NCBI GenBank assembly: GCA_012735465.1
Contig: JAAYHJ010000027.1
Span: 1-50,681 of the forward strand
Length of the DNA stretch: 50,681 bases
Source of the DNA: Clostridiaceae bacterium
GTDB lineage: Bacteria > Bacillota > Clostridia > SK-Y3
Direction of reading: 5' to 3'
Shown here: positions 34,902 through 50,490 of the stretch, piece by piece
Layout: each line of letters opens with the position of its first letter
How positions within the stretch are numbered: position 1 is the first letter of the stretch
The notes under the pieces: generated by a model
The model's input: the letters and a program-made list of their open reading frames with translations, nothing else
Told to the model about the DNA's origin: nothing
Database searches by the model: none
Position numbers and translations under genes: made by a program

Positions 34902-36545
34902 CTATCTATCTTTCAATTTGCGCAGTTCGTTCAATATTTCATGGTATTCTCTATCCAAGGCTTCTCTATCATCATGTTTTGATGGAACTGATAATCTACC
35001 TATAACCTCTGAAAGGCGGTTATTTAATATAATTATTTGTTTTTGAATCTCCTCTTTATTTTTACTTAGATAATTATTTCTTTCACTTAAGTATTCTGTG
35101 AAGGTCCCAACATACATTTTTATCTTTTTATTCTCTATTACTGCAATTTGATTTGCAATAGCATCTACAAATTTTCGGTCATGGGAAACAAACAATAATG
35201 TTCTATCATATTCCCGCAGCGTTTCTTCTATCACTTCAAGAGAATTGATATCCATATAATTAGTAGGTTCATCCAATATGAGTAAATTTATATCACAAAG
35301 CAATATCTTAGCAAAAGAGACTTTTACTCTTTCCCCACCACTTAGGACATCAACCTTTTTATAAATTGAATCGCCCCTAAAAAGCAGCCGGGCAAGCAAT
35401 AGCCTGGCAAAGCTCTCCGGGTATATGCTGCTTTCCATCACATTTTCTATTATACTTGCATCCTTTTTTAAAATGTCCATCTCCTGGCTAAAATACCCTA
35501 TCTTTGCACCTTTAGCAACTCTTATAGCATCATCGCCTTCCACTATCATCTTAATTAAAGTGCTTTTCCCGCAACCATTAGGACCAATTAATGCTACTTT
35601 TGCACCATTATAAATATTAAATGAAGCATTTTGAAATATAATTTTATCACCAAAGGCTTTATTTATATTTTTTCCTTCTATTATTATTTTGCTGTGAAGC
35701 TTGCTGGATTCCAAAATATCCAGTTTAATCTTAGGCTGTTCTCTAGGCTTTTCCTTTACCTCAAGATGCTCAATCCTACTCTCAATATTTTTAACCGCTC
35801 TATCAAGGGTAGCCTTCGCCTTTTGTCCGCCCATCTTATGAAGCCTTGCCTCCGAATTGCCCATCCTCTTAGGCGTTTTTCTCATGCTTTTAATCTTTTG
35901 TTTTGTATCATTAATAACACTTTCAAGCCGCTTTTTTTCTTTTACATATTCTTCAAACTCAAACTGAGCTCTTTCTATTTCTTGAATCTTTTGTGCCTTG
36001 TAATCACTATAATTACCCTTATAAATATTAATCTTGCCGTTTTCTATTTCTAGAATCCGATTGCATAATTTATCTAAAAACTCTCTGTCGTGAGAAATAA
36101 TAAGAAAAGCACCTTTGTACTTCATTAGCTGCTCCTCTATAAACTCAATACCTTGCATATCCACATTGCTGGTAGGTTCATCTGCAAATATTATATCGCT
36201 GTCATCCTCTAAAGCTCCCGCCAGCTTAAATCTCGTTTTTTCTCCACCGCTCATGTTCGCAGACCAAACAGGTTTAATACCAAGCTTTGATGCCATTTCA
36301 CTGCTTATTATTTTTTTATCCGGTGGTTCCAGTTGCGATATATATGCAGCCTTTCCATACAACTTTATCCATCCTTCGTCAGGCTCCAACCTTTTACTTA
36401 ATATATTTATTAAAGTAGTTTTGCCGACTCCATTCGCACCTACTACCCCTATTCTGTCTTCCGAATAAATCTTTAGACTGTCTATATCCAATATCAGCCG
36501 ATCACCAAAATACTTTTTAATATCTTTGCATTCAATTAATAACAT
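34902..36545 (-). CDS. ABC-F ATPase, ribosomal-protection (ARE) type
   Basis: 547-aa soluble twin-ATPase without membrane domains. NBD1 has Walker A GANGVGKTT, signature MSGGEKTR and Walker B FADEPTSN. A long basic, coiled-coil interdomain linker spans about 190-275. NBD2 has Walker A GPNGCGKST, signature LSGGERVK and LILDEPTNYMD. A C-terminal coiled coil follows (about 490-547). ABC-F proteins with this linker and no Arm insertion match the Vga/Lsa/Msr/CplR-like antibiotic-resistance group, which dislodges drugs from the ribosomal exit tunnel, rather than EttA. The drug range cannot be read from sequence, though lincosamide-pleuromutilin-streptogramin is usual for Clostridia. The start ATG is 6 nt after GGGAGGA, which itself lies in a hairpin of a long regulatory leader. 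Confidence 0.88.
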   Translation of the reverse strand: MLLIECKDIKKYFGDRLILDIDSLKIYSEDRIGVVGANGVGKTTLINILSKRLEPDEGWIKLYGKAAYISQLEPPDKKIISSEMASKLGIKPVWSANMSGGEKTRFKLAGALEDDSDIIFADEPTSNVDMQGIEFIEEQLMKYKGAFLIISHDREFLDKLCNRILEIENGKINIYKGNYSDYKAQKIQEIERAQFEFEEYVKEKKRLESVINDTKQKIKSMRKTPKRMGNSEARLHKMGGQKAKATLDRAVKNIESRIEHLEVKEKPREQPKIKLDILESSKLHSKIIIEGKNINKAFGDKIIFQNASFNIYNGAKVALIGPNGCGKSTLIKMIVEGDDAIRVAKGAKIGYFSQEMDILKKDASIIENVMESSIYPESFARLLLARLLFRGDSIYKKVDVLSGGERVKVSFAKILLCDINLLILDEPTNYMDINSLEVIEETLREYDRTLLFVSHDRKFVDAIANQIAVIENKKIKMYVGTFTEYLSERNNYLSKNKEEIQKQIIILNNRLSEVIGRLSVPSKHDDREALDREYHEILNELRKLKDR

Positions 36546-36924
36546 AAAAAATCCTCCCTGTGCTCGAGAGGATAGTATTTTTACGCAAATCTTTATGCAT
36601 TATTTATCAGACATTAAACAATATGTGATATTATAACACCGCCACCTACAGAGATAGAGGACATATTTAATATCACTTTATAAAACCCATATTGTAAAAT
36701 GCAAATATCATTTAAAACTCAAATATGTCACAAAGATATCCACAGCGATAAAAATACTATCCACCCAGAAATTTTTAAAGTACAACAAAAAAACCTTTAC
36801 TTAAGGTAATACCCAGGTCTTATGTGTAATTTTATATAGTGAATTTCTAAAGTGGATTATCTCTTCATCCCTGTAAATACCTTGCCCTTTCTTTATAATA
36901 TGTGATTACAAAAATTCATGCATT
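36546..36924 (-). promoter_or_regulatory. Long structured leader of the ABC-F gene (putative attenuator)
   Basis: The transcript from the 36925-36953 promoter runs about 370 nt before the start codon. Visible elements: (1) a weak terminator, stem ACCTT/AAGGT at 36793-36807 followed by seven T; (2) a hairpin just before the gene (36551-36558 with 36566-36573) containing the Shine-Dalgarno sequence and followed by six T; (3) a 14-nt perfect long-range complement, 36749-36762 with 36570-36583, that would disrupt hairpin 2; (4) a 9-bp pair GTGATATTA/TAATATCAC and an 8-bp pair ACAATATG/CATATTGT between them. Small reading frames occur (MKR-stop at 36857-36868; 16 codons at 36614-36664; 22 codons at 36532-36600, overlapping the ABC-F start), but none has a good ribosome site. 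Drug-responsive attenuation is inferred. Confidence 0.7.
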
Positions 36925-36953
36925 ATTATACTGGTTACCTTCTTTGCTGTCAA
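36925..36953 (-). promoter_or_regulatory. Consensus sigma-A promoter of the ABC-F leader
   Basis: Perfect consensus on the minus strand: TTGACA (36948-36953), 17-bp spacer, TATAAT (36925-36930). It lies just downstream of the tRNA-operon terminator, so it is an independent start for the ABC-F leader. Confidence 0.85.
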
Positions 36954-36967
36954 GACCAACATATAAC

Positions 36968-36997
36968 AAAAAAAACCTCTATCCACTGATAGAAGGT
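36968..36997 (-). terminator. Terminator of the tRNA operon
   Basis: ACCTTCTATC and GATAGAGGT pair around an AGTG loop (36988-36997 with 36975-36983), followed by eight T on the minus strand, 7 nt after the tRNA-Lys CCA end. Confidence 0.9.
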
Positions 36998-37003
36998 CTT
37001 TAA

Positions 37004-37079
37004 TGGTGAGCCATCCGCGATTCGAACGCGGGACACCTTGATTAAAAGTCAAGTGCTCTGCCTACTGAGCTAATGGCCC
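37004..37079 (-). tRNA. tRNA-Lys (TTT)
   Basis: 76-nt cloverleaf including encoded CCA. The acceptor GGGCCAT pairs with ATGGCTC (one G-T), the D-loop is of AGCTCAGTAGGCAGAGC type, the anticodon loop ACTTTTAAT carries TTT, and the T-arm has GTTCGAATC. It is last in the five-tRNA operon. Confidence 0.97.
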
Positions 37080-37085
37080 ATAAAT

Positions 37086-37161
37086 TGGCTGGGATGGCAG
37101 GACTCGAACCTACGCATGCCAGAGTCAAAGTCTGGTGCCTTACCGACTTGGCTACATCCCA
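37086..37161 (-). tRNA. tRNA-Gln (TTG)
   Basis: 76 nt with encoded CCA. The acceptor TGGGATG pairs with CATCCCA, the U1-A72 pair is typical of glutamine tRNA, the anticodon TTG lies in ACTTTGACT, and the discriminator is G. The T-arm carries GTTCGAGTC. Confidence 0.97.
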
Positions 37162-37227
37162 ATATATATATATATTTATATTTTATTTATAATATGTTTT
37201 ATATTTATATATTTTTTATACTAAACA

Positions 37228-37304
37228 TGGGGTGGATAATCGGATTCGAACCGATGACCTCCAGAGCCACAATCTGGCGCTCTAACCAGCTGAGCTATAC
37301 CCAC
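37228..37304 (-). tRNA. tRNA-His (GTG)
   Basis: 77 nt with encoded CCA. The acceptor GTGGGTA pairs with TATCCAC, and anticodon GTG lies in GATTGTGGC. The discriminator C can pair with an encoded G at position -1 (base 37305), the histidine identity element. Confidence 0.97.
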
Positions 37305-37309
37305 CATAC

Positions 37310-37386
<77 letters not shown>

Positions 37387-37389
37387 ACA

Positions 37390-37463
37390 TGGAGCGGGTG
37401 ATGGGAATCGAACCCACGCGGTCAGCTTGGAAGGCTGAAGTTCTACCATTGAACTACACCCGC
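37390..37463 (-). tRNA. tRNA-Gly (TCC)
   Basis: 74 nt with encoded CCA. The acceptor GCGGGTG pairs with CACCCGC, the anticodon TCC lies in CCTTCCAAG, and the T-arm carries GTTCGATTC. It is first in the operon, 30 nt downstream of the -10 box. Confidence 0.97.
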
Positions 37464-50244: not shown

Positions 50245-50490
50245 CCCTCGTCCTTATGAAGGACGAGGGTTTATCCCGCGGTACCACCTTATTTTTCATG
50301 CTGCCATTTACAGCATGAACTCTCTTTGGCGTTAACGGTGCCACCGTCACAACTTACTCTTTCTTTCGGCTGTGCGACTCCAGAGCTACCTTCAGTACCA
50401 CTTTTTCTGAAGAACCTTTCAGCCCACGGGTTCTTCTCTCTTTAGAACAGTTAGTACCTACTCCTCTCTTTCATCGTCTTTAAAAACATT
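50245..50490 (-). promoter_or_regulatory. T-box leader (valine-type) of the valS operon
   Basis: tRNA-sensing riboswitch. The T-box core AAGGTGGTACCGCGG is at 50276-50290, with TGG (for ACCA of uncharged tRNA) in the bulge. The terminator stem CCCTCGTCCT/AGGACGAGGG (50245-50269) competes with the antiterminator. Stem I lies upstream, with a likely specifier codon GTC (valine) at 50376-50378. Low charged tRNA-Val would permit read-through into the small membrane gene, valS and folC. Confidence 0.93.

Follow-up and report, generated by a model that had tools for sequence, protein, structure and literature searches.

Results

A CplR-like ABC-F gene and its leader

The window (the whole 50,681-nucleotide stretch of DNA analysed here) encodes at 34902–36545, on the minus strand, an ARE-ABC-F ribosomal protection protein of 547 amino acids, identified by NCBIfam profiles and relatives in the PDB. 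With NF000355 (ARE-type ABC-F) the protein scores 533.1 bits, above the curated cut-off of 380. The best-scoring NCBIfam model is NF043038 (CplR) and Vga is the second; because the CplR score of 644.7 bits, although the best, is under the curated cut-off of 780, the protein is named CplR-like. Among solved structures its closest relatives are a lincosamide-streptogramin A resistance ABC-F (PDB: 7nhl) and Lmo0919 (PDB: 7nhn). Directly upstream of this CplR/ARE1-type gene is a leader, all elements of which are on the minus strand.

The promoter, TTGACA-17-TATAAT at 36953–36925, matches the consensus at 12 of 12 positions, as an earlier note on this DNA had described, and transcription is expected to start near 36919. 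The same note had considered a start downstream of 36760, which would leave the first arm of its long-range helix untranscribed; the promoter lies upstream of both arms, and in most of the 28 related leaders (see below) the upstream open reading frame (uORF) is likewise preceded, at a comparable distance, by a promoter-like pair. Five tRNA genes (37007–37463, minus strand) are located directly upstream of the ABC-F promoter and have their own terminator at 36995–36976. Fragments resembling the last of the five are found on contigs C71, C77, C51 and C85 of the window's genome, and a T-box leader is located near the end of the window (50256–50483, minus strand).

The uORF, ATG AAG AGA TAA (Met-Lys-Arg, 36868–36857), is preceded by a Shine-Dalgarno (SD) stretch, AAAGGGCAAGG, at 36890–36880. 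The uORF and its SD sit inside a hairpin, SL1 (36884–36732), which is supported by covariation and by probabilities of 0.86–1.0 in the free fold. The outer helix of SL1 (approximately 36884–36871 with 36745–36732) spans the stretch between the uORF SD and the uORF start. In the middle helix (36857–36850 with 36766–36759) the last part of the stop codon, together with the bases 3' of it, pairs with GGGTGGAT, which overlaps the antiterminator arm described below, so that the 3' side of SL1 includes the start of that arm; SL1 is thus the candidate anti-antiterminator. The inner hairpin (near 36825–36787) contains a covarying helix and a 5 bp stem (ACCTT/AAGGT, 36807–36793) that is followed by seven uninterrupted T, the whole element spanning 36807–36787. 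Similar T runs occur in two relatives (L012 and L023), and most others have TTTATTGT instead. The inner hairpin and its T run may act as a pausing signal or as an additional, weak early terminator.

At the other end of the leader a terminator hairpin (36573–36551), identified by scan, conservation and folding, has eight base pairs formed by ATCCTCTC and GGGAGGAT. Its 3' arm contains the SD of the ABC-F gene (GGGAGG, 36558–36553), and it runs into six T (36551–36546) that are followed by the ATG at 36545. The terminator scan passes two sites in the stretch, against 0.3 (sd 0.6) in shuffled sequence; the second is 36995–36976, upstream of the ABC-F promoter, which probably serves the tRNA cluster. 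The earlier note had counted two terminator-like hairpins in the leader. The SD-burying one passes the scan; a weaker hairpin at 36807–36793, also present in the leader, falls below it.

The 5' arm of the terminator overlaps TAAAAATACTATCC (36583–36570), which is a perfect 14-nt complement of GGATAGTATTTTTA (36762–36749). These two segments are the 3' and 5' arms, respectively, of the proposed antiterminator. The complement had been recognized before as taking one arm of the terminator, and it proves exact; none of 150 dinucleotide shuffles of the leader reaches 14 nt (longest 13, mean 8.65). The extensions of this helix that had also been proposed, CGC (36747–36745) with GCG (36586–36584) and ATCTTT (36737–36732) with AAAGAT (36594–36589), are found in the sequence and recur in the fold predicted for the stalled state; the region they belong to (36747–36584) includes the variable, self-folding loop between them. 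The leader as a whole folds with a z-score of −4.88 relative to shuffled sequences, and the antiterminator region of the window with a z-score of −4.52.

Conservation and covariation among related leaders

A scan of genome contigs gave approximately 30 related ABC-F genes (60–73% identity), most with upstream DNA, and 28 leaders were extracted, which together with the window make a set of 29. The order of elements is the same in all 28. An SD like AAAGGGCAAGG comes first, then an ATG close by, a segment resembling AATTCACTT and an inner hairpin; GAGTGGATAG, the variable loop and CTATCCTCTCC follow, and the last element is GGAGGGG with a T tract. The uORF SD is conserved in 29/29 leaders and the uORF has three codons of the form M[K/R][I/M/L/K/R]-stop in 26/29; the other three are MRTL, MFN and, in L032, a uORF lengthened by an insertion, the in-frame stop having been lost. 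The MKR of the window differs from the published MR[I/M] consensus, and MKK, MKI, MKL and MKM occur in relatives. The ABC-F reading frame breaks early in L032 (211 aa), L060 (185 aa) and L031 (365 aa), from either decay or sequencing error.

In SL1, 36 pairs are paired in 93% of cells and 12 of them have changed on both sides. The covariation score is 0.237, compared with 0.176 (sd 0.007) for shuffled controls and at most 0.081 when the pairing is slid. For the antiterminator, ten pairs are 96.9% paired across the 29 leaders with a score of 0.227 (shuffled 0.157, sd 0.014; slid at most 0.115). Lack of conservation or covariation in the two arms, named in the earlier note as the result that would count against its helix, is thus the opposite of what is found. 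The key antiterminator pair, 172/210, is G-C in 14 leaders, A-U in 12 and G-U in two; since it has changed at least six times on the ABC-F protein tree it is not one inherited difference, the independent-pairs test being too small for significance. The terminator is present in 29/29 leaders, 90% paired, with two pairs changed on both sides. GGAGGGG and its T tract adjoin the start codon, and nearly all leaders retain the T tract uninterrupted.

The loop between the two antiterminator motifs varies from 116 to 302 nt among the relatives. In L016 and L032 it contains long, near-perfect inverted repeats (region fold z-scores −8.7 and −8.4) resembling small inserted elements, so the loop can take up insertions without loss of pairing between the arms.

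A covariance model of SL1 (R1) matches in 14 of 391 genomes across the class and in 38 of 207 genomes of the family of G371, which holds Clostridium relatives. Matched loci, 41 of which were inspected (the window's own included), precede an ABC-F gene in 40 cases. The exception (L102) is a weak match (E = 0.007) inside an unrelated ORF and was taken as chance, so the leader is tied to the ABC-F gene family. One match (L100, E = 4.3e-6) has an MRI uORF and a leader of about 213 nt, fitting the published description of the Clostridioides difficile leader. Searching the window's own genome with R1 gave no second copy besides an antisense echo of the known one. No Rfam 15 family scores above its gathering threshold in the leader; there is one chance match (E = 3.1), and neither a riboswitch nor a T-box is matched.

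Predicted switching of the fold on uORF occupancy

In equilibrium folding, which does not include kinetics, the free leader of the window has the terminator at a probability of 0.97, the antiterminator at 0.00 and the middle helix of SL1 at 0.86. Keeping 32 nt around the uORF start single-stranded, as a mimic of a stalled ribosome, brings the antiterminator to 0.98 and the terminator to 0.08. When this footprint is slid along the whole leader, the antiterminator is freed only while the 5' edge lies between approximately 36897 and 36857. The MKR start is the only one of 19 candidate starts that switches the predicted fold when occupied. Occupation of an 8-codon ORF at 36919 (MNFCNHIL), of a 26-codon TTG ORF at 36788 or of the 16 further candidates leaves it as it was.

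The free state is the same in 29/29 leaders (antiterminator 0.00, terminator 0.89–1.00). With the footprint on the uORF, 16/29 reach an antiterminator probability of 0.5 (mean 0.57) and several respond weakly; extending the footprint slightly, to include the entire SD, raises the mean to 0.71. Shifting the footprint by −32, +32 or +64 nt leaves all 29 below 0.5. By analogy with known drug-sensing leaders, and given the conserved M[K/R]x-stop pattern and the predicted fold switching, the Met-Lys-Arg uORF is very probably the ribosome-stalling sensor.

Discussion

We are confident that the leader works as a cplR-type attenuator that depends on the ribosome, and that it is a long-loop relative of a known switch. 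Transcription would start near 36919. Without drug, ribosomes would not linger on the Met-Lys-Arg uORF, and SL1 would form and hold the 5' arm of the antiterminator; as the 3' end of the leader emerges, ATCCTCTC would pair with GGGAGGAT and transcription would terminate just before the ABC-F start codon, the SD staying buried in any read-through RNA. A drug that targets the peptidyl transferase centre (pleuromutilins, lincosamides and streptogramins A being the candidates by analogy) would stall the ribosome at the uORF start, so that SL1 could not close. The freed GGATAGTATTTTTA would then pair with TAAAAATACTATCC, removing the 5' arm of the terminator, and transcription would continue with the SD exposed. 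The switching of the fold on uORF occupancy is a computed prediction; drug stalling, termination in vivo, induction and the resistance spectrum we infer from the C. difficile homologue and from the protein family.

The antiterminator and SD-liberating helix, which the earlier note took to be switched by drug-stalled ribosomes or another signal, fits the covariation in 29 leaders, the fold simulations and the experimental dissection of C. difficile cplR; the perception there of an SD-burying hairpin that ends in six T was likewise borne out. That note had named no sensor, and had missed both the Met-Lys-Arg uORF and the 5' anti-antiterminator.

The SD lies within the 3' hairpin, which raises the question of whether the hairpin, terminating poorly, merely hides the SD so that the switch acts purely on translation of a full-length mRNA. 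A C. difficile poly-U mutant is still drug-regulated (PMC10201436), so repression by SD burial alone is possible. The uninterrupted T tract that follows the stem in nearly all leaders would be superfluous for a spaced SD, however, and termination at the start codon has been mapped in C. difficile (PMC10201436); we regard purely translational attenuation as improbable. A leader so long, strongly structured and conserved might instead sense through SL1 a signal other than the ribosome, such as a metabolite, an uncharged tRNA or a protein. This is less probable still: searches of the leader match neither a riboswitch nor a T-box, SL1 contains a conserved SD, start codon and stop codon, the predicted fold switches only on uORF occupation and the C. 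difficile homologue needs uORF translation (PMC10201436). As for the 14-nt complement being a chance match, complements of 8–9 nt normally arise by chance in AT-rich DNA such as this leader, but the shuffles never reach 14 nt and a chance origin is contradicted by the conserved, covarying arms in 29 leaders, leaving it a negligible probability.

Within the cplR-type reading, the long-loop leaders could form a distinct class, in which the clade-specific self-folding loop and the seven-T inner hairpin of the window add a checkpoint for early termination or pausing, and in which varied second and third uORF codons (MKR, MKK, MRM, MFN and others) tune the inducing drugs. We consider this rather unlikely.

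The analysis extends a proven drug-sensing switch of C. difficile to many, mostly environmental, Clostridia, with RNA states backed by covariation, and supplies a covariance model for a leader that nothing in Rfam matches. How uORF codons set which antibiotics induce resistance is named as an open question in the C. difficile study (PMC10201436), and the range of uORFs seen across species offers a natural data set with which to address it. As far as the papers found in our search show, what is new is the evidence from covariation, the distribution across many Clostridia, the MKR, MKK, MKI and MFN variants and the lack of any Rfam match.

Comparison with known systems

The switch architecture itself, which the earlier note did not recognize, is already known from the C. 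difficile cplR leader (Obana et al. 2023, PMC10201436), and the window probably holds a longer-looped homologue. The C. difficile leader is 212 nt long and has a Met-Arg-Ile uORF within a 5' hairpin; its terminator, the stem of which sequesters the SD, ends at the start codon, where termination has been mapped, and its antiterminator forms when a ribosome stalls on the uORF. Mutants of the uORF, the stem and the poly-U tract behave accordingly under lincomycin or retapamulin (PMC10201436). The window shares the homologous ABC-F gene, the tripeptide uORF in a 5' hairpin, an SD-hiding terminator that ends at the start codon and an antiterminator that forms on uORF occupancy, in our case as computed. 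It differs in its uORF (MKR rather than MRI) and in the length of its leader (approximately 375 nt rather than 212), owing to the longer antiterminator loop, and the perfect 14-nt antiterminator core and the inner hairpin with seven T are unlike C. difficile cplR. The published uORF search took 300 nt of upstream sequence (PMC10201436) and would miss the uORF of the window, which is 323 nt away.

By its description, the vmlR leader of Bacillus subtilis (Takada et al. 2022, PMC9226507) follows the same logic, with a uORF in an anti-antiterminator, an antiterminator, an intrinsic terminator and burial of the SD. Its uORF is MIN, a NusG-dependent pause has been shown, and its terminator and SD-burying hairpin are separate, whereas one hairpin does both in the window (PMC9226507). 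In the parts of the sources available to us, two surveys of structured bacterial RNAs contain no ABC-F leader and one uORF motif, of hflX. According to the passages available on lmo0919 (vgaL), vga(A) and msrD, these are likewise ARE-ABC-F genes whose induction depends on a drug stalling ribosomes at short upstream ORFs; the uORFs and RNA structures described for their leaders differ from those of the window.
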